A stretch of DNA of 43,464 nucleotides from Candidatus Kaiserbacteria bacterium (GTDB lineage Bacteria > Patescibacteriota > Minisyncoccia > Phycocordibacterales > Phycocordibacteraceae): the NCBI GenBank assembly GCA_026396675.1, contig JAPLWI010000010.1:1-43464 (forward strand), written 5' to 3'. Positions 28,283 through 42,333 of this stretch are shown piece by piece; position 1 is the stretch's first letter, and the number at the start of each line of letters is the position of its first letter. The notes under the pieces were generated by a model. It worked only from the letters and a program-made list of their open reading frames with translations. It did not search any database and had not been told where the DNA came from. The position numbers were made by a program, and so were the translations under genes.

Positions 28283-29464
28283 ATGGACATTCTCTTTTTG
28301 ATACACATCATCGCACTGCTCTTTTCTTTCTTCGTTATTGGAGCGGTTCTTGGTGCCGTCTTCTCTGAAATCTTCCGACACAAGATTGTCGTAGTCGTGC
28401 GGCGACTTTTGCTCAACAAGTCCGACTCTAATCCAATCTTGAAACCTGGAACCAATGTTTGGGCTGCAGAAGCAGTAATGAATCCGGCTGCTGCTTTTTT
28501 TGATGGTCGCACACATCTTATCTATCGTGCTATCGGTTCTGATGGTGTTTCTCGACTCGGTTATGCGAGCAGTGCCGATGGTATTGTTTTCGACAAACAA
28601 CTTCCCTATCCGGCTTTCGTCGCAACGAGATTGCATCGGTCTCATATGCACAATATTGAACGTAGGTATTCCCTTACACTATATCCATCGGGTGGCAGCT
28701 GGGGTGGTTGTGAAGACCCGCGAATGGTGATGATTGACGGTCGCGTATATGTCACTATCAATATATTTGACGGCTGGAATTTCATTCGCGTCGCGTTCAT
28801 CTCGATTGCAGAAGATGACTTTCTCGCGGAGCAATTCGACAAATGGGAAGGCCCGCATCTTATCTCACCTCCGGGACAAATACATAAAAATTGGGTATTG
28901 TTCCCAGAAAAAATCGGTGGTCGGTTTGCAATTTTGCACAGCATCACACCAAATGTAGAAATTGCTTTCCTCGATGATATTGAAAATGTCGGTATCACCG
29001 AACCATTTGTCGAGAGCTGGGTCGGCGCGCGCGACTGCCTACCGGCGAGAGATGATTCATGGGACAGCTTTGTTCGCGGTGCTGGCCCACCGCCAATTCG
29101 AACAGATCGCGGATGGCTTCTTTTCTATCATGCGATTGATAATCGTGATCCTGGCCGTTATAAACTCGGTGCGATGTTGCTCGATCTCGCTGACCCGACA
29201 AAAGTGCTTTATCGTGCTGCCGCGCCGGTTATTTCTCCCGATGAGTACTACGAAAACGACGGCAAGCCAGGCATTGTCTACGCATGCGGCGCGGTAGTCC
29301 GCACCTCGACTGAGCTCGGGACAGGTGATAAAAAATTGTTCGTTTATTACGGCGGAGCGGACAAGGTCGTCTGCGTCGCGACCTCACCGCTGAACCACTT
29401 CCTTGATGCTCTCGTTGAAGGAAGTCAGGCATCCCTCACAGCAGTGCCAGCGCAAATTGTTTGA
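28283..29464 (+). CDS. Membrane-anchored GH130-like glycoside phosphorylase
   Basis: Five-bladed propeller enzyme of the GH130 type, whose members phosphorolyse beta-mannosides to mannose-1-phosphate. 393 residues. Residues 1-35 are a membrane helix (FLIHIIALLFSFFVIGAVLGAVF), unusual for the family. The catalytic domain runs from SNPILKPG to about 375 with GGCEDPRM (the Asp is the general acid), YRAIGSDGVSRLGYA, FPEKI, LFYHAID and YYGGADKVV. First of four tightly packed genes. Confidence 0.88.
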   Translation: MDILFLIHIIALLFSFFVIGAVLGAVFSEIFRHKIVVVVRRLLLNKSDSNPILKPGTNVWAAEAVMNPAAAFFDGRTHLIYRAIGSDGVSRLGYASSADGIVFDKQLPYPAFVATRLHRSHMHNIERRYSLTLYPSGGSWGGCEDPRMVMIDGRVYVTINIFDGWNFIRVAFISIAEDDFLAEQFDKWEGPHLISPPGQIHKNWVLFPEKIGGRFAILHSITPNVEIAFLDDIENVGITEPFVESWVGARDCLPARDDSWDSFVRGAGPPPIRTDRGWLLFYHAIDNRDPGRYKLGAMLLDLADPTKVLYRAAAPVISPDEYYENDGKPGIVYACGAVVRTSTELGTGDKKLFVYYGGADKVVCVATSPLNHFLDALVEGSQASLTAVPAQIV

Positions 29465-29467
29465 CAT

Positions 29468-30529
29468 ATGGAGCAAAAAACATATTTCGAGCATCCAGAT
29501 AAAGCGGTTGGGGACAATCGTTTCAGTCATATGATGGCGATAACACTTGACCCGCGTTCTAAATACAAAGAAGGAATCATCCGCTGTATCACGAGCCGTA
29601 GCGGGGATATTGAGTTTCGTGGATATGTCGACCGAAGTGTACTTTACAAAGTGAGTGGCGATACATTAGAGAAGTTCTCTATTGATAACCAGCTTGTTAT
29701 AAAGGGCGCGGAAGAAATGGTGCAACGACTCGGCGGAGATTTGTGGGATTTTATTGGATTTGAAGACCCTGATATTTGGATTGATGAATTAATGGGGAAA
29801 ATGCATTTGTATTTTACAATTGCTCTTATCAGCAAAGATCGGTCAAAAGCACATTCAATTATTTCTCTGGGACATGCTGAGGGGGACGATCTTGATTCTC
29901 TTTCGATGACCGCTCCCGTATTGCTGGGAGATAAATATGAGTATTCAAATCACAAGGCAAAAGAGATTTCCGTCGCGCCAATAAACAAAAACGGCGTCCG
30001 TTTGAATCTCTTTGAATCAGGAGACCGTCGCAAAGACCCTTACTACGATACGAGCAAATTCGGCAAAGACACTTCATTTTCAACAGTGCGTGTCGCCATT
30101 GCAAAAGATATGAGTAAAGAATGGGAGTGGGGAGAAATCGTTTTCCATCCTGCCGATCATAAAATTCCGTGGATTGCGGAGCATGCGTCGCCGGGTCCGC
30201 TTCTGCCGCGTTCATTTATTAATATTGGGGCTGATAAATTGCTCGGCATTATGAATGGGCGCGAAGCAAGCAGATTAGATGCTGCGAACAAGCCGATTCA
30301 TTATCGAAAATTTTCAATCGGACTTTTTATCTATAATTATGAAAATGGGAAAATAGAATGGGTATCGCCAGAACCGCTTATCCGCGATAGTGAAGCGAAA
30401 ATAATTACCTTCGCTAGCGAATTCGTGGAGACGAAATCTGGTGAAGGAATTTTGTATGCTCATGTTGACGACTCTTTTGTACGCGCATACACACTGTATG
30501 CTGAAGGTATTCGAGCATTGCTCCCTTAA
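29468..30529 (+). CDS. Divergent beta-propeller glycosidase-like protein
   Basis: 353 residues starting 3 nt after the GH130-like gene. Propeller-type repeats with IGFEDPDIW in the place of the GH130 GCEDPR motif: the Asp is kept but Arg is replaced. The domain matches GH130/GH43-like folds only loosely, so it may be a diverged or non-catalytic partner or have another specificity. No signal peptide. Confidence 0.7.
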   Translation: MEQKTYFEHPDKAVGDNRFSHMMAITLDPRSKYKEGIIRCITSRSGDIEFRGYVDRSVLYKVSGDTLEKFSIDNQLVIKGAEEMVQRLGGDLWDFIGFEDPDIWIDELMGKMHLYFTIALISKDRSKAHSIISLGHAEGDDLDSLSMTAPVLLGDKYEYSNHKAKEISVAPINKNGVRLNLFESGDRRKDPYYDTSKFGKDTSFSTVRVAIAKDMSKEWEWGEIVFHPADHKIPWIAEHASPGPLLPRSFINIGADKLLGIMNGREASRLDAANKPIHYRKFSIGLFIYNYENGKIEWVSPEPLIRDSEAKIITFASEFVETKSGEGILYAHVDDSFVRAYTLYAEGIRALLP

Positions 30530-30531
30530 TT

Positions 30532-32511
30532 ATGTTTGTCATTAGACGAGAACCACATAATCCGATACTCGCACCGCTTCAAGAGCGGCCGTGGGAGTCA
30601 GTGGCGACCTATAATCCTTCTGCTGTGCGTACCGAGGATGGCGTGCGGCTGTATTATCGCGCGCTCGGTAATCCGAGCGCGCTTGCGACACCGCTTGCTG
30701 AAATGTCGACTATCGGCACTGCTTTTTCCGAGGACGGTGTCCACTTCCATTCGCGACAACAGATTATTATGCCCAGCGAATCGTGGGATCAATTCGGCTG
30801 TGAAGACCCGCGTGTCACATTTTTTGAAGGTCGTTGGTATTGTTTCTATACTGCACTCGGCGGTTACCCTTTTGGTCCTGACAATATTAAAGTCGCGGTC
30901 GCTATTGGTGACTTGCCAGACAATTTCATCGAGCGACATTTGATTACGCCCTTCGACGCGAAGGCCGCAACAATTTTCCCCGAACGCATCGACGGCGACA
31001 TCGTGATGCTCCTCACCGCGCACACTGACTGGACGCCAGAACATCCGCGGCCGACCATCGCGCTCGCTCGCGCAAAGAAAATCGAGGACTTTTTTGATAC
31101 AAACTATTGGAACGAATGGCACGACCATCTCGCTGACCACGCGCTCGGCGATTTGCGCCGCGATAACGATGTTCACATAGAAGTTGGTGCATCGCCTCTC
31201 TTGACTGACGCGGGCTGGCTGCTCATTTATTCTTACATTCAGGATTATTATGACGAACACAAACGCATCTTCTCGATTGCGGCCGCGCTGCTTGATGCAA
31301 AAAATCCGCAAAATGTTATCTCGCATACCGAATCAATTCTCGTGCCGCAAGAATTTTATGAAGAATATGGTCTCATCCCGCACATCGTATTCCCGACGAG
31401 TGCAACCATCGACCCTTCGACTACGCTCGGGGTAAGCGACCGACTTGAAATATGGTATGGCGGAGCCGACACGGTCTGCGCGAAGGCGAGCGTGAAATTG
31501 CATGACCTCCTGCGCGCGCTTGACCCAAATCGGCCTGCGCGTACCTTCACTCGAGCGCCAGAAAATCCAATTCTTTCGCCGCAAGGCAACGGATTCGAAA
31601 GCCGCGAAGTGATGAACGCCGCAGCGATTGAAATTAACGACTCGATTTATATTCTCTATCGCGCGATGGACGCGGAGAACACCTCTACCGTCGGACTCGC
31701 GATTTCTAAAAACGGCGTCGTTATTGACGAACGATTACCGGAGCCAATTTACACTCCGCGCGCTGATTTTGAAATGAAAAAAGGAAGTCCAACTGGTAAT
31801 TCTGGTTGTGAAGATCCACGCATTGTGCGTATTGAGAATACGCTTTACCTGACTTACACGGCATACGATGGCGTCCATCCGCCATCCGGTGCGGTCTCGT
31901 CAATCAGCGTTGATGATTTTCTCGCGCGGAAATTTGAGAAATGGAGTATGCCACTCATCCTGACACCTGATGGTGTTGATGATAAAGACCTTGCTCTCCT
32001 GCCTGAAAAAATAAACCTGTCCGGTCAGGATGGAAATTATTTGCTTTATCATCGCATTAATAATCAGATTTGTGCCGACCTTCTACCCGACATTGTATCC
32101 GGTAAACGGGCGAGCCGATGTATAGAAATCATGGGCCCGCGACACGGCATGTGGGATGGAGTGAAAGTTGGTGTTGCCGCACCACCGATTAGAGTCGGCC
32201 TGCCCCCTGACCGGGCAGGTGGCCAGGGCGACAAATGGCTAATGATTTATCACGGTGTGTCGCGCCACGCCCGCTACCGCCTAGGCGCCGCGCTTCTCGA
32301 CACTGATGGTCTTACTGTTCTCGCACGTACTGCAGACCCGATTTTTGAGCCACTTGAGAAATACGAGAAAGAAGGAACCGTTCCAGACGTTGTCTTTTCT
32401 TGCGGCGCAGTTGTATGTGGCGATACTTTATATCTCTACTACGGTGCCGCCGATAAAGTGCTCGGCGTTGCGACGGCGTCGCTCGCGCATATTGTTGATT
32501 CCCTTTCATAA
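30532..32511 (+). CDS. Tandem GH130-like protein with two catalytic propellers
   Basis: 659 residues formed by two GH130-like domains (about 1-325 and 335-659), each with its own acid motif (FGCEDPRV near 84-91; SGCEDPRI), FPERI/LPEKI and WYGGAD / YYGAADKV ends. Such duplication is unusual for the family. No signal peptide. Two dispersed repeats are translated inside it (DPSTTLGVSD and PPDRAGGQG). It overlaps the next gene by one base (TAATG). It likely phosphorolyses mannosides in the cytoplasm. Confidence 0.87.
   Translation: MFVIRREPHNPILAPLQERPWESVATYNPSAVRTEDGVRLYYRALGNPSALATPLAEMSTIGTAFSEDGVHFHSRQQIIMPSESWDQFGCEDPRVTFFEGRWYCFYTALGGYPFGPDNIKVAVAIGDLPDNFIERHLITPFDAKAATIFPERIDGDIVMLLTAHTDWTPEHPRPTIALARAKKIEDFFDTNYWNEWHDHLADHALGDLRRDNDVHIEVGASPLLTDAGWLLIYSYIQDYYDEHKRIFSIAAALLDAKNPQNVISHTESILVPQEFYEEYGLIPHIVFPTSATIDPSTTLGVSDRLEIWYGGADTVCAKASVKLHDLLRALDPNRPARTFTRAPENPILSPQGNGFESREVMNAAAIEINDSIYILYRAMDAENTSTVGLAISKNGVVIDERLPEPIYTPRADFEMKKGSPTGNSGCEDPRIVRIENTLYLTYTAYDGVHPPSGAVSSISVDDFLARKFEKWSMPLILTPDGVDDKDLALLPEKINLSGQDGNYLLYHRINNQICADLLPDIVSGKRASRCIEIMGPRHGMWDGVKVGVAAPPIRVGLPPDRAGGQGDKWLMIYHGVSRHARYRLGAALLDTDGLTVLARTADPIFEPLEKYEKEGTVPDVVFSCGAVVCGDTLYLYYGAADKVLGVATASLAHIVDSLS
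31413..31437. repeat. Dispersed repeat in GH130 domain 1
   Basis: CCCTTCGACTACGCTCGGGG followed by TAAGC, weakly palindromic, translated as PSTTLGVS near the end of the first propeller. Confidence 0.5.
32199..32219. repeat. Dispersed palindrome in GH130 domain 2
   Basis: CCTGCCC / GGGCAGG arms, 7-nt loop, with outer GGCC repeats. Translated as GLPPDRAGGQG between two strands. Confidence 0.6.
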
Positions 32512-33257
32512 TGAACAAACTCATTGTTTTTGACTTAGATGGAACGTTAACTGAGAGCAAACAGCCGCTCGACAGCGAGATGGCATCGCTCGTTGCGAAA
32601 CTTCTTGCTGTCACGAAAGTCGCGGTCGTCTCTGGCGGCGCGTTGCCGCAATTTTTGAAACAGGTGTTCGCACGGCTTCCGAATGATGCGAATTTCGCAA
32701 ATCTTTATTTATTACCGATATCCGGTGCTGCACTTTATGAGTTCTGCGAAGTTGGTTTGGGAAAGATTTATGAAGAACGCCTTTCAGAAAAAGAAGCGCA
32801 CACTATAGAGACCGCGATGCGCGAAGCGGCGAAGGAAACTGGTCTTATCAACTTCTCCGAACCCGCGTGGGGCGAGCGTATTGAATACCGCGGCGGTCAG
32901 GTAACAATGTCGGCACTCGGACAAGAGGCCCCGCTCGCCGAGAAAAAAGCGTGGGATCCCGATCACGCGAAGCGCCGAAAACTGCAGGCGGCTATCGCTG
33001 CACGATTACCAGAATTCTCGGTCGGAATGGGCGGTGCGACAACAATTGATGTAACAAAACGTGGCATTGATAAGGCCTACGGCATCCGGCAACTTTGTAA
33101 ACGCCTCGGCATTCCTGAATCCGAAGCGCTCTATGTCGGCGACGAACTTATGGCTGGCGGTAATGATGAAGCCGTGTATAAAACTGCCGCGCAAACAAAA
33201 AGTGTAAAAAATCCTGCTGAAACTGCGAAGATTATCAAGTCGTTGCTTTTAAATTAG
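32511..33257 (+). CDS. HAD-superfamily phosphomannomutase-like phosphatase
   Basis: 248 residues. HAD motif I FDLDGTLT, motif II SGG, a cap region with NFSEPAWGERIEYRGGQVTMS, and GGATTIDVTKRGIDKAYGI then VGDEL. The order resembles eukaryotic-type alpha-phosphomannomutase and HAD-IIB phosphatases. Last gene of the GH130 operon: it could convert mannose-1-phosphate from the phosphorylases to mannose-6-phosphate, or dephosphorylate it. Mutase versus phosphatase cannot be settled. Confidence 0.83.
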   Translation: MNKLIVFDLDGTLTESKQPLDSEMASLVAKLLAVTKVAVVSGGALPQFLKQVFARLPNDANFANLYLLPISGAALYEFCEVGLGKIYEERLSEKEAHTIETAMREAAKETGLINFSEPAWGERIEYRGGQVTMSALGQEAPLAEKKAWDPDHAKRRKLQAAIAARLPEFSVGMGGATTIDVTKRGIDKAYGIRQLCKRLGIPESEALYVGDELMAGGNDEAVYKTAAQTKSVKNPAETAKIIKSLLLN

Positions 33258-33287
33258 AAAACCCCGCGACAACAAGCGCGGGGTTTT
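33258..33287. terminator. Bidirectional terminator after GH130 operon
   Basis: Arms AAAACCCCGCG / CGCGGGGTTTT with an 8-nt loop. It also serves the convergent gene at 33303. Confidence 0.9.
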
Positions 33288-33788: not shown

Positions 33789-33857
33789 ACTGTTGTGCAA
33801 AAAACTAGATTTTAAGCCATATTTTCATAATCAAAGCTCTATATCTTGTAAAAAAGT

Positions 33858-33880
33858 TGAAAGATTTCGTAAACCTTTCA
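33858..33880. repeat. 5' REP of the RAYT gene
   Basis: TGAAAGATTT-CGT-AAACCTTTCA, 9 of 10 pairs. Read in the RAYT frame it gives KDFVNLS, matching the peptide from the tgt copies. Confidence 0.78.
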
Positions 33881-33895
33881 TGTATTATGGAAGGC

Positions 33896-34579
33896 ATGGA
33901 ATTATGGCATGTATTAAATCACGGGGTTGAAGGACGAGACTTATTTCTTGACACACAAGATTACGCGCGTTTTGTGCATAATCTCTACGAATTTAATGAC
34001 TCTGCTCCTGCCGATAATCTTTGGCGCCTCTTTGATCCGTCTGGAATGAAAGATTTCGTAAACCCTTCATTTAGAAAAGCGAGACGGCTGCTAGTGGACA
34101 TTCACGGTTGGGTACTAATGAAGAATCATTATCACCTGCTCCTTTCAGAACGCGCGGAGAACGGAATCAGTTTATTTCTTCGCAAATTGAATGTTGGCTA
34201 TTCGAATTATTTTAATGCACGCTACAAGCGTCGCGGAACTTTATTCCAAGGTCGCACAAAAAAGATTTTGATAGAAAATGAATCGCATTTCTTATACATT
34301 CTTCATTATTTGCATCTTAATCCTCTCGATTATCTTGAGGGTGCCAAGGAATGGCGTCTACGAAACAAGAGTGGAATCAAGAACATGAATGATGCACTGG
34401 AGTATCTCGACTCATATCGCTGGAGCAGCTATCTGGACTATATTGGGAAAAAGAATTTTCCGTCTGTTATTACGACTGCATTTTTTAATAGTTCACTTGG
34501 CGACTACCGCACCTCGCTTAGCGAATATCTTCGCGATGCCGAATACGATAACGACTTCACCAAGCTGATGTTTGAATGA
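33896..34579 (+). CDS. REP-associated tyrosine transposase (RAYT, Y1/IS200-like)
   Basis: Single-strand DNA transposase of the HUH Y1 class, the type thought to mobilise REP palindromes. I chose ATG 33896 (MELWHVLNHG); ATG 33887 is possible, and the longer frame starts with TTG inside a repeat. HVLNHGVEGRDLF, the HUH-type NHYHLLL and YSNYFNARYKRRGTLFQGR are diagnostic. A REP is translated within it (MKDFVNPSF, from 34045), and its stop codon lies inside the 3' REP. About 227 residues. It appears intact. Confidence 0.92.
   Translation: MELWHVLNHGVEGRDLFLDTQDYARFVHNLYEFNDSAPADNLWRLFDPSGMKDFVNPSFRKARRLLVDIHGWVLMKNHYHLLLSERAENGISLFLRKLNVGYSNYFNARYKRRGTLFQGRTKKILIENESHFLYILHYLHLNPLDYLEGAKEWRLRNKSGIKNMNDALEYLDSYRWSSYLDYIGKKNFPSVITTAFFNSSLGDYRTSLSEYLRDAEYDNDFTKLMFE
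34045..34071. repeat. REP inside the RAYT gene
   Basis: AATGAAAGATTT-CGT-AAACCCTTCATT, 10 of 12 pairs, translated as MKDFVNPSF in frame with the transposase. Confidence 0.78.
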
Positions 34580-34611
34580 AAGGTTTTGAAAGGTTTACGA
34601 AACCTTTCATT
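34575..34611. repeat. 3' REP of the RAYT gene
   Basis: Nested palindromes: outer 12-base arms AATGAAAGGTTT / AAACCTTTCATT and inner GAAAGGTTT-ACG-AAACCTTTC. It contains the RAYT stop codon. Confidence 0.85.
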
Positions 34612-34908
34612 TTTCATTTAGAGCGCATGAGGCGGACTAGGCGGATTGTTTCAAATGAATGGCGGCCACCGAGTGAATGGAAAACGGGCGAGAGGCGATC
34701 GCTCTTTTCATCTGAGAGCGCTTCATGTATTTCGTCAACAACACTAATCGGGACGAGATGTGCGAAGTCAGCGCGCCTTAACTTCCCTATTTCTGACAAC
34801 TCTTCCAAATGCTTTACGATAGTGCTCATTGTCAGTCCACGCGCTTTCGCTGTCTCTTTTAAACTTCTTGTATCGCGCGCGGCTTGAAGCGTTTCTGCAA
34901 GTCGACCA

Positions 34909-37657: not shown

Positions 37658-40600
37658 TTACTCTCCGAGCGCGGTGCGAACTTTGTCTATAATCGCTTGA
37701 TCAACACCGAAGGATTGGAGAACGGTGATAATAGAATTTACCTGCGAGGTCGTGAGGTTTGATTTTGAGGAGGTTTCCGGAGTCGTCGCAATGATTCCTT
37801 TGTTGAGTTCAGCGCGGGTCAAAGAGCCGACGGTGCCGGTCTGGACGATATGGTGCGCCTTTTGGAAGGCGATGACTGCGGCCCTGGTTTGTGCGCCGAA
37901 ATTGCCTGTGGCGCCTGCCGATATTGCGTACCCCGAATCAATAAGTAATTGTTGGAGTGCCGTCACATCGCTGTTTTTCGAGCCGACACTGAGATTCTTC
38001 GTGAAGTTGTATGTTGCCGCACCGAGTACTTGGCCCTGATTAAGAGTTGGTGAACCCGTGGTCGTTACCGTCCTAGGAATACAAGATGTCGTGGCAGTAT
38101 TCCAGACAAAACCGTCACCGCATCCGCCCCCGCCTCCGCCAGTAGAATTAGTCGTCTGTGTATAAGTCGCGAAAGTTGTGAAGTGTTTGGTCCAAATTAC
38201 GAGGTCCGAACCGTTTGCGGCATCGATTTTACACTCGCTGTCTGCGTCGAGAGCATCACCAGCTACTTGAGTGTCCGCGCTACAGGTGTTGGTGATTTCA
38301 GTAAATGCTGTACCAGTTCTAACATAACCAGCTCTCTTGCCGGCTTGCCCGACGAGCAAAATTCTCACCGCTTTACTGAACGATAATTTTTCTCCAGAAA
38401 AACCAACTTCAATCGCGGTGCTGAATGTTTTTGTTTGTCCTGAAGTTACCGGCAAGTCCACTGTTGTAACTGTCGGAGCAGCTATAACGCCGTTCCAGGT
38501 CGTACTAGCGGAAGTCACGATTGTTGAAGCAGGAATTTCTACATCGGTGTTGTTCGCATTCGCCGATGTGATAGTGATCGCCGGCAAGGTTCCTGTTCCT
38601 CCGGTAATGAATGCGCTCACATCAATCGTCGGATTGGTCGTGCCACTGCTGATGGTGACATCCACTGCTTGCGTTGGATTTGTGATAACGACTTCTGGGG
38701 TAGTTGAATCAATCGTCGCGTCGCCACTCGCGTCTGGTGCCTTTTGAGTTTCTTCTAGAACAGTCACTTTCACTGCATATGCCTGTGTCGTTGAGTTCGC
38801 GACTGTAACTGTGTAGGTACTTGTCGCGGTGAAATCCTTGGTCGATCCGGAAGTTGGGCTTATTGATGCTCCGGTAATCGAGATGGTCGGAACGAGTGTC
38901 GTCACATCCGTCCCGTGAGGAACATTCACTGCGATTGTGTGAGCCGTTTCGTTAATGACGCCACTCGCCGCAGGCGTTGCAAAACTGAAAGCGGTGATTG
39001 CTTTAATATTGCTTAAAGTCGTCTTTGCTTCATCAATATAATACGGCTTAAAGGTAACACCGCTGGTAATTTTTGCCGCTACTGTTGCTAATACCGAACT
39101 GCCCCACCAGTTGTTGGCGGCGTTTGCGGATCCTGCATAGACACTAAGATCGCTGTTACAAACTCCGTATTTTGGACTAGTACATGCTGTACCTGCGGAA
39201 TCGTTGCCAGTAATTTTATTATCCTGCAACACGAATGTCGCTCCAGTTGCACCTACTTCAACGCCAAAGTCGTTGCTGAGAACACGGTTATTGTTAAACT
39301 CAGCGGTCTGCACATTGGCGGACACGCCGCCTGAGTGATTATCGTGAATGTAATTATTGTTGATTTTTACACCAGTGGCACCGCCATCTATAACAATGCC
39401 AGCATAGCCATTCACATCGTAAATTTCGTTGCCATCAATATTGGCGTTTGTCGCGGCAGTGTTAATTTGAATGCCCCTCTCACTCACATCGTAAATCGTG
39501 TTTCCATGAATGCTGAGACTTGTACCGCCGGCCTGCGCCAAGACACCGTTATTACCAGTCCCAATGCCGTGTATCGTGTTAAGACCTACATCTGCTGTAC
39601 CGGAAAAATTGCCGAGATTAATTCCAGCATAAGTTGAACCGTCAATAGTGTTTCCGGTAATTGTAAGATCGTGAGGTCCAAAGAACTCCATCGGACGAAC
39701 AGTGTTAGTTAGTGTGTTGTCGGTAATTGTAAGGTTGCCATTGTTATAAGCCGTAATACCTCCAAATGTCTGATTGGAAATCGTGTTGTTCGCTATGGTG
39801 GTAAGCCCAGTAATGCCCGGAGGCCCATCAAATTGTATAGCGCGTTGTCCGCCGGCGATGGTGTTGTACTTTATTGTGTTGCTGCCCGTTCCTACATCGG
39901 ATTGCATGTAGATTGCATAAAGAAGTCCAGTACCGCTCGTCGCCATGGTGATAGTATTTCCATCTGCCGATGTATTTCCACCGATGGTATTGAGATTAGA
40001 ACCATTGCTAAGACCGATTCCGGTTACATCGGCGCCGTTGGTGGGGCCGTTAATCGTGTTGCCCGATACTGTGTTACTGTCCGCGTCGGACAATTGAATA
40101 GCTCGGTCAACATTGTGTGTCAATGTGTTATTGGCGATCGTCGTATTATTAGCAACATCTAGCTCAATTCCGATGAAGTTGTCATGGATTTGATTGGCGT
40201 CGCCCGAACCACTGCCGCCGATAATTACATTGTTGGAGTTAGAAATCAGAATTCCATAACCGGTTGGCGAAGTTCGTGTGTTGCCGGAAATATCGTTCCC
40301 TTTTATCGTTTCAATTCCGCCGCCGAATGCCAAGATTCCGTAGCCCGCGTTGGAACCTGTCAGTACATTGTCATGAATTGTCACATTTGGATCAGCCGCC
40401 GATCCATTGTCTCCGTCAGCATCTATTCCAAACGAGGTGTAGTTGCTGATGGCGTTATCATCAACAGTGAGTGTGGAATTGCCTTCCACCATAATCCCAG
40501 AGTTGTCCGTAGCCGAGCCAAAATTCTGTATGGTACTTGAGAATAAACCAGCAGTCGTACCGCCAGCATCGAGAACATCCCCAAAGAAAACGCCGTCAAA

Positions 40601-42232
40601 TCTAGTTGTGCCACTCGTTTTGTTTTTCCCGTTGGCGTCAATCGTAAAGCCCTGGATGCGAACATCAATCGTTGAACTAAGCGCGTAGGCCGCAACGACA
40701 TAGTCGTTGGTTTCAGCTCCTCTGTTCGTTGAGCGTGCCACACTGCCAGTTCTTATGGCCGGAGCAAGAATTGTTGTAGTTGTTTCGCCAGCGCCAATAA
40801 GATCCAAGGACTTGGTAATTGTTATCTGTTCTGTATATGTCCCAGCTGAAACATTAATGGTGTCGCCGGAATTCGCAGCATTAATAGCCGCTTGAATGGT
40901 ACCGTCGTCATTTGGTCTCAATGCATTAACATAGACGGTATCCGCACTCGGAGCTACTTGTCCACTGATGGTAATGTCTTTTGTGCCAAAGATTGTCGAA
41001 CCGTCATTCGCTAAAGCTTTCACCGTAACGGTCCCATTTGCAACCGCAGTCAGCAAACCGCTTCCATTGATGGTTCCGAAATCAGTTCCTGAAGTAATGG
41101 ACCATGTGACTGTTTTGTCGGTTGCCTCTGCTGGAAGAACCGTTGCACTCATCTGAAGTGTCCCGCCATTTGTAGAAATGGTGGTGGCGTCGCCTGCGCT
41201 CGTGACAGTAATTCCAGAAACTTTAGTTGGCAAATCGAATTGTGTGAAGTGAGAAGCAGAAAAAGATAGTTGCCCACTATTCGACCCGCCAGCTGAATAC
41301 GCGATGGAGTTCACAATTCCAGAGCCATCGATCACGGTGCCTCCGTCATTTTTTACAATTATGCTCGGTTGGCTCGTAAAGCCGAGTGCATCCAATCCAT
41401 ACATATAGATTTTTGCTCCTGTTGCATTCATATCTGCAGCAGTCGTAGAGTCAAACTTTATATGCCCAGCTGACATCTCCATCGCTGTACCGAGTGACTG
41501 CAAAACAGCGACTGTACTCGTGCTTGTCAGGTTTAATTCTTTTTCAAATACGATTTTTCCTCTTCCGGTCTTTTCGAAGTAAAGGGCTCCTGCACCTTCG
41601 GTGGCTGGTGTTGCTGAAGGATTAGCGAGTTCTCCCATATTTGTCTCTACTTCTGCATCATGCAAGTTAGAATCAATTGTACTTAACAATGGCGCTTTAT
41701 CTTGTTGCCCGGCATCATTGAACCAGCCCTTAGTCGGCGTTCCGATGGTCCAAGACGAAGGAACGGATCTGTAGGCGGATTCGCTAGTGGAACTAGGGGC
41801 GCCAGTTACATGTTCCCCACCGCCAAAACTTATCGAGCCATAACTCACGGCGTGAATCTGAACGCCGCTGGCATCATAAAGAGTCATCATGTCGCCTTCT
41901 TGATTGAAACCGCCTGTGGTCGGCACTATAACGACAAGACCGTACGCAGGAATAGTCACCGCGCCAATAGTTGTCGTAGCCGTTCCGCCTATATGAGCCA
42001 TTGTTGCGGTCTGTCCTCCAAAAGTTAAATCGGTGAGTTTCCATCCGGACAGAGAAATATCAGCACCGGTTGTGTTCTGAAGTTCAATCCAATCAGAACT
42101 TGAAATTCCATCGGAGCTAAACTCATTGATAATCACATCGCCAGGTGATGCGGCAAACACGCTCGGAGCAGCGGCACCGAACGCGAGAATTGAAATCAGA
42201 ACGGGCAGAGAAATACGCAGTGCATTTTTCAT
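37658..42232 (-). CDS. Giant surface protein: lamin-tail, Ig-like, beta-helix, peptidoglycan-binding
   Basis: 1,524 residues from ATG 42232; an earlier ATG at 42259 adds nine. Signal peptide, lamin-tail domain (about 28-150: GDVIINEFSSDG, DWIELQN), Ig-like BIG2 domain (about 333-424: GITVTSAGDATT, ATDKTVTWSI), a long right-handed beta-helix (about 429-1034: repeated NTI/GNTI turns), a further Ig-like domain (about 1076-1150), and a C-terminal peptidoglycan-binding domain (about 1412-1477: DVTALQQLLIDSGY, TRAAVIAFQKAH) preceded by QGQVLGAAT. It is probably wall-attached and may bind or process polysaccharide. Confidence 0.92.
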   Translation of the reverse strand: MKNALRISLPVLISILAFGAAAPSVFAASPGDVIINEFSSDGISSSDWIELQNTTGADISLSGWKLTDLTFGGQTATMAHIGGTATTTIGAVTIPAYGLVVIVPTTGGFNQEGDMMTLYDASGVQIHAVSYGSISFGGGEHVTGAPSSTSESAYRSVPSSWTIGTPTKGWFNDAGQQDKAPLLSTIDSNLHDAEVETNMGELANPSATPATEGAGALYFEKTGRGKIVFEKELNLTSTSTVAVLQSLGTAMEMSAGHIKFDSTTAADMNATGAKIYMYGLDALGFTSQPSIIVKNDGGTVIDGSGIVNSIAYSAGGSNSGQLSFSASHFTQFDLPTKVSGITVTSAGDATTISTNGGTLQMSATVLPAEATDKTVTWSITSGTDFGTINGSGLLTAVANGTVTVKALANDGSTIFGTKDITISGQVAPSADTVYVNALRPNDDGTIQAAINAANSGDTINVSAGTYTEQITITKSLDLIGAGETTTTILAPAIRTGSVARSTNRGAETNDYVVAAYALSSTIDVRIQGFTIDANGKNKTSGTTRFDGVFFGDVLDAGGTTAGLFSSTIQNFGSATDNSGIMVEGNSTLTVDDNAISNYTSFGIDADGDNGSAADPNVTIHDNVLTGSNAGYGILAFGGGIETIKGNDISGNTRTSPTGYGILISNSNNVIIGGSGSGDANQIHDNFIGIELDVANNTTIANNTLTHNVDRAIQLSDADSNTVSGNTINGPTNGADVTGIGLSNGSNLNTIGGNTSADGNTITMATSGTGLLYAIYMQSDVGTGSNTIKYNTIAGGQRAIQFDGPPGITGLTTIANNTISNQTFGGITAYNNGNLTITDNTLTNTVRPMEFFGPHDLTITGNTIDGSTYAGINLGNFSGTADVGLNTIHGIGTGNNGVLAQAGGTSLSIHGNTIYDVSERGIQINTAATNANIDGNEIYDVNGYAGIVIDGGATGVKINNNYIHDNHSGGVSANVQTAEFNNNRVLSNDFGVEVGATGATFVLQDNKITGNDSAGTACTSPKYGVCNSDLSVYAGSANAANNWWGSSVLATVAAKITSGVTFKPYYIDEAKTTLSNIKAITAFSFATPAASGVINETAHTIAVNVPHGTDVTTLVPTISITGASISPTSGSTKDFTATSTYTVTVANSTTQAYAVKVTVLEETQKAPDASGDATIDSTTPEVVITNPTQAVDVTISSGTTNPTIDVSAFITGGTGTLPAITITSANANNTDVEIPASTIVTSASTTWNGVIAAPTVTTVDLPVTSGQTKTFSTAIEVGFSGEKLSFSKAVRILLVGQAGKRAGYVRTGTAFTEITNTCSADTQVAGDALDADSECKIDAANGSDLVIWTKHFTTFATYTQTTNSTGGGGGGCGDGFVWNTATTSCIPRTVTTTGSPTLNQGQVLGAATYNFTKNLSVGSKNSDVTALQQLLIDSGYAISAGATGNFGAQTRAAVIAFQKAHHIVQTGTVGSLTRAELNKGIIATTPETSSKSNLTTSQVNSIITVLQSFGVDQAIIDKVRTALGE

Positions 42233-42333
42233 GTTTATAATTATTTTTATAAAAACCAAATAAACCTCCGGCGCCCCGCCGATGGATAGTAGAATTGTCT
42301 ACCTGTCTATCCCATTGTCAACTCTCTTGTGCG

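Follow-up and report, generated by a model that had tools for sequence, protein, structure and literature searches.

A putative mannose-1-phosphate and beta-mannoside module of intact and modified GH130 propellers in a Candidatus Kaiserbacteria bacterium

The locus described here raises the question of what a four-gene operon of GH130-fold proteins and a HAD phosphohexomutase could be doing in a reduced and probably host-dependent cell: scavenging foreign mannosides, as the initial annotation had proposed, or building and remobilizing a mannan of its own. We analyzed a window of 43,464 nucleotides, that is, the whole stretch of DNA under study (positions 1-43,464, forward strand, of contig JAPLWI010000010.1, assembly GCA_026396675.1), from Candidatus Kaiserbacteria bacterium (GTDB lineage Bacteria; Patescibacteriota; Minisyncoccia; Phycocordibacterales; Phycocordibacteraceae). 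The operon probably specifies a cytosolic module acting on mannose-1-phosphate (Man1P), mannose-6-phosphate (Man6P) and beta-mannosides, whose reactions we infer from sequence.

The operon and its GH130-fold propellers

The four open reading frames (28283-29464, 29468-30529, 30532-32511 and 32511-33257, all on the + strand) were found exactly where the initial annotation had placed a four-gene operon with 0-3 nt spacing, the genes being separated by 3 nt and 2 nt and then overlapping by 1 nt. Immediately 3' of the gene 4 stop lies a GC-rich, terminator-like hairpin followed by a T-tract (CCCCGCG-loop-CGCGGGG-TTTT; about 33258-33287, +), which was read from the sequence itself and is absent from the output of a pattern scan. 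A DNA repeat search, independent of profile searches, recovered four copies of the codons for the GH130 motif G-x-EDP, spaced 1050, 1040 and 1008 nt apart. These copies of repeat family D1, each covering the catalytic EDP motif on the + strand, fall one per propeller: in gene 1 (28705-28737), gene 2 (29755-29787) and domains A (30795-30827) and B (31803-31835) of gene 3.

Gene 1 (28283-29464, +; 393 aa) encodes a single GH130 propeller by its match to PF04041 (96.6 bits, 1.8e-27; cut-off 26), and its nearest PDB chain is Teth514_1788 (1.4e-40). It retains the catalytic Glu-Asp and the mannose-binding residues, and its phosphate-site Arg is replaced by Ser (S-type). Numbering residues by the Teth514_1788 chain and assigning a phosphate-site role to R161 and R/K195 by alignment, we found Ser and Val at the two test positions, with an Arg one position later, a pattern that departs from that of a phosphorylase. 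An N-terminal transmembrane helix (residues 9-27; 28307-28363, +; hydropathy 2.76, net charge +3 after the helix) bears out the membrane-anchored enzyme of the initial annotation; since the positive charges come after this helix, the catalytic domain is predicted to be cytosolic. Lys-rich tails occur in relatives.

Gene 3 matches PF04041 over two stretches (269.5 bits, 4.2e-80; cut-off 26), so that the proposed tandem duplicate is indeed a GH130 protein with two domains; its single-sequence fold model has a pLDDT of 33. Domain A (30532-31545, +) retains the catalytic Asp and the mannose-binding residues and has an altered phosphate site (R161 to Thr, R195 to His, G197 to Glu). Glu at 197 together with a non-basic residue at 161 recurs in 20 of 20 A domains, which form a monophyletic clade in our tree (support 1.0); domain A represents a conserved GH130 clade with a rebuilt nucleophile site. 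Domain B (31546-32511, +) has Arg and Lys at the two test positions, R161 and K/R195 being retained in all 20 B domains; its nearest PDB relative is the beta-1,2-mannobiose phosphorylase Teth514_1789 (4e-39), and it is predicted to be a beta-1,2-mannoside phosphorylase. In the tree, A, B and S are old, separate GH130 lineages, and the phosphate-site substitutions of domain A and gene 1 are conserved within theirs.

Gene 2 (29468-30529, +; 353 aa) had no match among the Pfam and NCBIfam profiles, PF04041 included, and remains unclassified by sequence. A fold search with its AlphaFold model (pLDDT 88.7) identified a five-bladed GH130-type propeller, the top 26 PDB matches all being GH130 or GT108 structures, Leishmania GT108 proteins among them; alignment to the GH130 profile was collinear and weak. 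Given this fold and the lack of a PF04041 match, gene 2 may act like a GH130 enzyme and yet is not filed as a member; it would represent a GH130-fold family for which Pfam has no model. Within the order it is patchy (6 of 247 genomes; relatives 55-62% identical). A match to DNA polymerase gamma (2e-7) covered only about 95 residues, found no support in the fold search and was rejected.

Across the four GH130-fold domains, both tested phosphate-site residues are kept in one, domain B. The label "GH130 phosphorylases" given by the initial annotation therefore fits domain B, but not gene 1, domain A or gene 2. The finding that the annotation had named as fatal to it, loss of the phosphate residues from all GH130 domains, was not made, domain B being intact. 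None of the domains reached the cut-off of the NCBIfam GH130 equivalogs (best 331 bits versus 450).

As for linkage, K143 and a Glu preceding the catalytic Asp are present in every cassette domain. At position 143, Teth514_1788/1789 and Lin0857, all beta-1,2 enzymes, likewise have Lys, and TM1225, a beta-1,4 enzyme, has Arg; by inference this position is equivalent to Lys199 of BT3780. The conserved Lys is a beta-1,2 determinant and the Glu a mark of GH130_NC (PMC4599007). Together, the +1-subsite Lys and the Glu point to beta-1,2-mannosides.

GH130 hydrolases, too, are recognized by having lost the basic residues of the phosphate site while keeping the other subsite residues (PMC4599007). This pattern is seen in gene 1 and domain A, and domain A has an invariant new Glu at 197 that might correspond to Glu268 of BT3780; the two could be beta-1,2-mannosidases like BT3780 or non-catalytic mannan-binding domains. 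We nevertheless regard this reading as very doubtful, as in every domain the NCBIfam BT3780 mannosidase model scores far lower than the phosphorylase model (for domain A, 49 versus 141 bits), and characterized GH130 hydrolases are secreted (PMC4599007), unlike gene 1 and domain A.

Hexose-phosphate enzymes and transport in the same genome

Gene 4 (32511-33257, +; 248 aa) encodes a HAD-IIB phosphohexomutase. Its match to PF03332, "Eukaryotic phosphomannomutase" (44.8 bits, 1.6e-11; cut-off 22.4), and its conserved motifs (DxDGT, R127, SALGQ, TIDV and GDxxxxGGND, with the catalytic Asp pair and GD/GGND invariant) agree with the alpha-phosphomannomutase-like HAD of the initial annotation; overall, however, it lies closer to alpha-phosphoglucomutase. 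Its best solved relative is the Lactococcus lactis alpha-phosphoglucomutase 4bnd (9.2e-40, versus 4e-14 for PMM2), a full-length match with a common S-A-x-G-Q cap motif, from which gene 4 differs in a PMM-like I-D-V motif and in having mannose enzymes as neighbors. The cap and specificity positions are mixed between alpha-phosphoglucomutase and PMM. Gene 4 is predicted to be a Man1P/Man6P mutase, possibly acting on Glc1P/Glc6P too, and its main substrates could be glucose phosphates. With GH130 proteins and a phosphohexomutase in one operon, the proposed link from Man1P to Man6P is plausible.

The mannose-6-phosphate isomerase that this scheme calls for has a candidate on a different contig, a ManC-type cupin (C18:49306-49650) that, like the cupins of relatives, matches the ManC/AlgA isomerase domain TIGR01479. 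Searches of the same genome returned no PGM/PMM, PGI or NTP_transferase match, in keeping with the reduced cell that had been supposed, and no homologue of the HldE-like nucleotidyltransferase of relatives; the assembly consists of 30 contigs, so these absences may be assembly gaps. Genome-wide, the transporter search covered the BPD permease and SBP_bac_1 families, and returned one BPD-type permease, adjoining its own ATPase gene and distant from the binding protein, and one sugar-type solute-binding protein (C18:22123) with no adjoining permease gene. The window ORFs examined included no importer or mannanase, such as a mannoside utilization locus would have, and the operon encodes no signal peptide.

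In the scavenging reading, beta-manno-oligosaccharides of a host or neighbor would enter the cell, GH130 would free Man1P without ATP, the HAD would convert it to Man6P and the cupin would pass this on to Fru6P for energy. Such a route agrees with what GH130 phosphorylases are known to do in anaerobes, where phosphomannomutase and mannose-6-phosphate isomerase are the following steps (PMC4264767); the genome has candidates for all three steps and the sugar-type binding protein. We consider it unlikely, however, given the permease placed by its own ATPase gene, an operon lacking signal peptide and mannanase, the inward-facing anchor of gene 1, the missing canonical phosphate site in three of four propellers, and the biosynthetic, nucleotidyltransferase-type partners found in relatives.

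The cassette across the phylum

A full-length tandem GH130 was present in 22 of 380 sampled genomes of the phylum, with a single GH130 immediately upstream in most fetched loci. In 12 of the 22 loci the tandem gene adjoins this HAD, a ManC-type mannose-6-phosphate isomerase cupin and/or an HldE-like nucleotidyltransferase (NT), and about half lack a linked partner of these kinds. The calculated adjacency probability, 2.5e-12, is indicative only, as it treats loci as independent and assumes a rough gene number; the calculation counted 23 loci, two contigs of one genome being taken separately. Some relatives carry them as fusions (NT-HAD, NT-cupin and cupin-GH130). The NT-cupin fusion of a same-family genome lies beside a GDP-mannose dehydratase and glycosyltransferases, and in one genus an ABC transporter immediately follows the tandem gene. 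Our literature searches returned no description of such a cassette in Patescibacteria.

These surroundings bear on another reading. Leishmania GT108 proteins have the GH130 fold, and GDP-Man-dependent transferases are among them. The modified propellers might likewise be glycosyltransferases whose mannose donor is linked to a nucleotide or a lipid and whose product is a beta-mannoside of the membrane or cell surface, with domain B recycling that product. The shared fold and the fold matches of gene 2 favor this, as do the anchor of gene 1 and the Lys-rich tails, the glycosyltransferases beside the NT-cupin fusion and the downstream ABC transporter. Yet no GT108 chain appeared among phmmer matches at E<=0.001, which gives no membership in GT108 by sequence, and no nucleotide-mannose source is known in the present genome because both an NTP_transferase match and the nucleotidyltransferase homologue are absent; we judge the reading improbable.

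A possible mannan economy

As a rule GH130 phosphorylases serve catabolism, and since phosphorolysis can run either way, the direction of flux cannot be read from gene content. The scavenging direction is nonetheless doubtful, with permease and binding protein unpaired, enzymes apparently cytosolic, and a partner set in relatives (nucleotidyltransferase, isomerase and mutase) that looks biosynthetic. We tentatively favor, with something short of even confidence, a full account in which synthesis would be the main direction and in which the reactions, the beta-1,2 linkage, the flux and the roles of the modified propellers are all deduced. Domain B would reversibly phosphorolyse a beta-1,2-linked mannan or manno-oligosaccharide, or elongate it with Man1P; the HAD would interconvert Man1P and Man6P, and the unlinked cupin would join Man6P to Fru6P. 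The three modified propellers (gene 1, domain A and gene 2), in which the mannose-binding site is retained and the canonical phosphate site is lost, would most likely take part in the priming, binding, transfer or trimming of mannan, with gene 1 working at the inner face of the membrane. It seems somewhat likelier that the cell builds and remobilizes its own beta-mannan, as a reserve or a surface or lipid-linked glycan, than that it scavenges foreign beta-mannosides. We identified no mannan primer or starter enzyme, which counts against synthesis, as does the missing nucleotidyltransferase.

The closest solved relatives, the GH130 beta-1,2-mannan phosphorylases Teth514_1788/1789 of Thermoanaerobacter, share the diagnostic Glu, Asp and Lys and the adjacency of GH130 paralogues, and their cluster is also tied to GDP-mannose metabolism (PMC4264767). 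Each of the two is a single-domain protein of its own with its phosphate site intact, and an ABC transporter is linked to them; the cassette, by contrast, fuses two domains in tandem, one of them altered, adds an anchored paralogue and an extra divergent propeller, and has no importer nearby. Leishmania mannogen, made by GT108 mannosyltransferases/phosphorylases, offers a likeness in its paralogous GH130-fold set and cytosolic beta-1,2-mannan chemistry around Man1P (PMC3290622, PMC8950772), but belongs to another sequence family and depends on GDP-mannose, for which we found no synthesis gene in this genome. The isomerase domain of bifunctional ManC/AlgA (mannose-6-phosphate isomerase/Man1P guanylyltransferase) is matched by the cupins of this genome and its relatives, whereas the fused cupins of relatives carry an HldE-like CTP_transf nucleotidyltransferase rather than the usual NTP_transferase.

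A broader and more speculative possibility is that Patescibacteria make and remobilize a beta-1,2-mannan, either inside the cell or linked to the membrane, as a bacterial counterpart of mannogen. They would do so with a cassette spread across the phylum, in which one GH130 propeller is intact and several are repurposed; the cupin isomerase and HAD mutase would feed it, and in some lineages the HldE-like nucleotidyltransferase would take the place of ManC. If true, a mannose polymer economy run by phosphorylases would persist among the smallest bacterial genomes without the ordinary sugar-nucleotide and hexose-phosphate enzymes, and would give a handle on carbon storage or surface building in Patescibacteria.

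Operon layout and a fourth propeller

The four-gene operon of the initial annotation was confirmed at 28283-33257 (+): genes 1-4 (28283-29464, 29468-30529, 30532-32511 and 32511-33257) are head-to-tail ORFs, with gaps of 3 and 2 nt between the first three and the last two overlapping by 1 nt, and sequence inspection revealed a GC-rich hairpin and T-tract directly 3' of the gene 4 stop. Pfam assigned genes 1 and 3 to GH130, gene 3 comprising N-terminal (A) and C-terminal (B) domains. Gene 2 had no family match in Pfam or NCBIfam. The top 26 PDB matches in a fold search with its structure model (built from eight homologues; pLDDT 88.7) were all GH130/GT108 (identity 9-15%, TM ≤0.67). A weak profile alignment to single GH130 proteins (E 0.016), collinear across 264 columns, pairs the EDP motif, the Lys segment and the C-terminal Asp region; a DNA repeat search revealed that EDP codons recur in all four propellers at a spacing of ~1.04 kb. 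Gene 2 has a sporadic distribution, being present in 6 of the order's 247 genomes and missing from four same-genus genomes, and its named relatives come from Patescibacteria and Nomurabacteria metagenome genomes.

Just 3' of the operon lies a REP-associated tyrosine (IS200-like) transposase gene (33857-34579), bracketed by 28-nt inverted repeats (33853-33880 and 34587-34614; element 33853-34614). Further along, 37658-42259 encodes a 1533-aa protein with Lamin-tail, Big_2, beta-helix/NosD and peptidoglycan-binding domains, adjoining a CAP-domain protein; it would be a large surface or secreted protein.

Phosphate site and linkage

Domains from 21 loci (20 single, 20 A and 20 B) were aligned with Teth514_1788/1789 (Teth514_1788 numbering). 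The mannose-site residues N29, E92, D93, K143 and D282 are kept in every aligned domain. By alignment with published descriptions, we infer that positions 161 and 195 are phosphate residues. The description of these genes as GH130 phosphorylases suits the B domains, which always retain R161 and K/R195 (n = 20), but not every propeller: A domains never retain R161 (T/S/A/G instead), have position 195 occupied by H or Q and invariably carry E at 197 (n = 20), and single domains of the window's wider lineage have S/N/A/T at 161, usually with Arg at 196, the position after 195. More distant single domains retain a basic residue at 161 plus K195. R161 and K/R195 are retained in 7 of 8 control GH130 proteins from other genomes, the remaining one being S-type like gene 1, in which Ser replaces the phosphate-site Arg. 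In GH130 hydrolases, three basic residues are swapped for carboxylic residues (PMC4599007). Because the A clade is monophyletic (support 1.0), apart from the B and S sequences, we regard the A-domain differences as old and maintained rather than decay.

The Glu preceding the catalytic Asp and Lys143 fit beta-1,2 enzymes: Teth514_1788/1789 and Lin0857 share this Lys, and TM1225, a beta-1,4 enzyme, has Arg in its place. The Teth514 enzymes have in common with BT3780 a conserved Lys (Lys199 in the latter) to which beta-1,2 specificity has been attributed (PMC4599007), and a beta-1,2 linkage is predicted for the cassette GH130 domains.

The HAD protein and cassettes in other genomes

The resemblance of the gene 4 HAD to phosphomannomutases held in part: it has the TIDV motif in common with PMM and matches PMM2 (56 bits), but 4bnd matches more strongly (140 bits) and its SALGQ motif is shared with alpha-PGM. 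The window's genome (640 kb; estimated completeness 100%) yielded a candidate mannose-6-phosphate isomerase, a ManC-type cupin matching TIGR01479. Searches there gave no match for PGI, nor for classical PGM/PMM and NTP_transferase, the latter two both matching in 14 of 14 control genomes. Since PGI had no match and the isomerase cupin is present, Man1P -> Man6P -> Fru6P would be the route leading to Fru6P. HAD homologues also turn up in many phylum genomes without the cassette. A homologue at G484:C94:775-1529, split in two pieces, one with an internal stop, is probably a pseudogene.

Full-length tandem GH130 occurs in 22 of 380 sampled phylum genomes, the window's included, usually with a single GH130 directly 5'. 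In 12 of 22 loci examined, the cassette adjoins one or more of three partners: the same HAD, the cupin or a PF01467 nucleotidyltransferase (nearest NCBIfam model, HldE domain II). Fusions join nucleotidyltransferase to HAD (locus L059), cupin to GH130 (L005) and HldE-like nucleotidyltransferase to ManC-type isomerase cupin (L075:6280-7152); the last, a possible ManC analogue, has three glycosyltransferases and a GDP-mannose 4,6-dehydratase as neighbours. Genome G239, of the same genus as the window's, carries a fusion of gene 1 with a B-type domain, lacking an A domain and followed by a HAD that is 76% identical. A DUF1361 membrane protein gene separates nucleotidyltransferase and cupin genes at L049:7039-7689 and L051:11844-12494. 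In two genomes of one genus, an ABC transporter (ABC_membrane + ABC_tran) lies directly 3' of tandem GH130 (L048:1027-2832, L051:6328-8112).

Predicted location and likely direction of the module

Positive charges follow the gene 1 helix, and its domain is therefore predicted to lie on the cytosolic side. In other families, the single GH130 proteins (L049, L050, L051, L052, L056, L059, L061) bear very Lys-rich N-terminal tails, which occupy the place of the membrane helix seen in the window's genus.

Scavenging of mannosides, as first proposed, is a serious rival to a biosynthetic role, yet the importer expected of it was not evident among the BPD permease and SBP_bac_1 families searched in the genome: the one BPD permease adjoins an ATPase gene, and the one SBP_bac_1 protein lies beside a type IV secretion pilin with no permease alongside. 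Given that relatives carry biosynthetic partners, that the anchor would face inward, that no importer is evident and that several propellers seem repurposed, we lean towards synthesis and remobilisation as the main direction. The repurposed propellers recall Leishmania mannogen (PMC3290622, PMC8950772). What the data support is a beta-mannoside/Man1P/Man6P module in the cytosol, containing a single good candidate for a phosphorylase.
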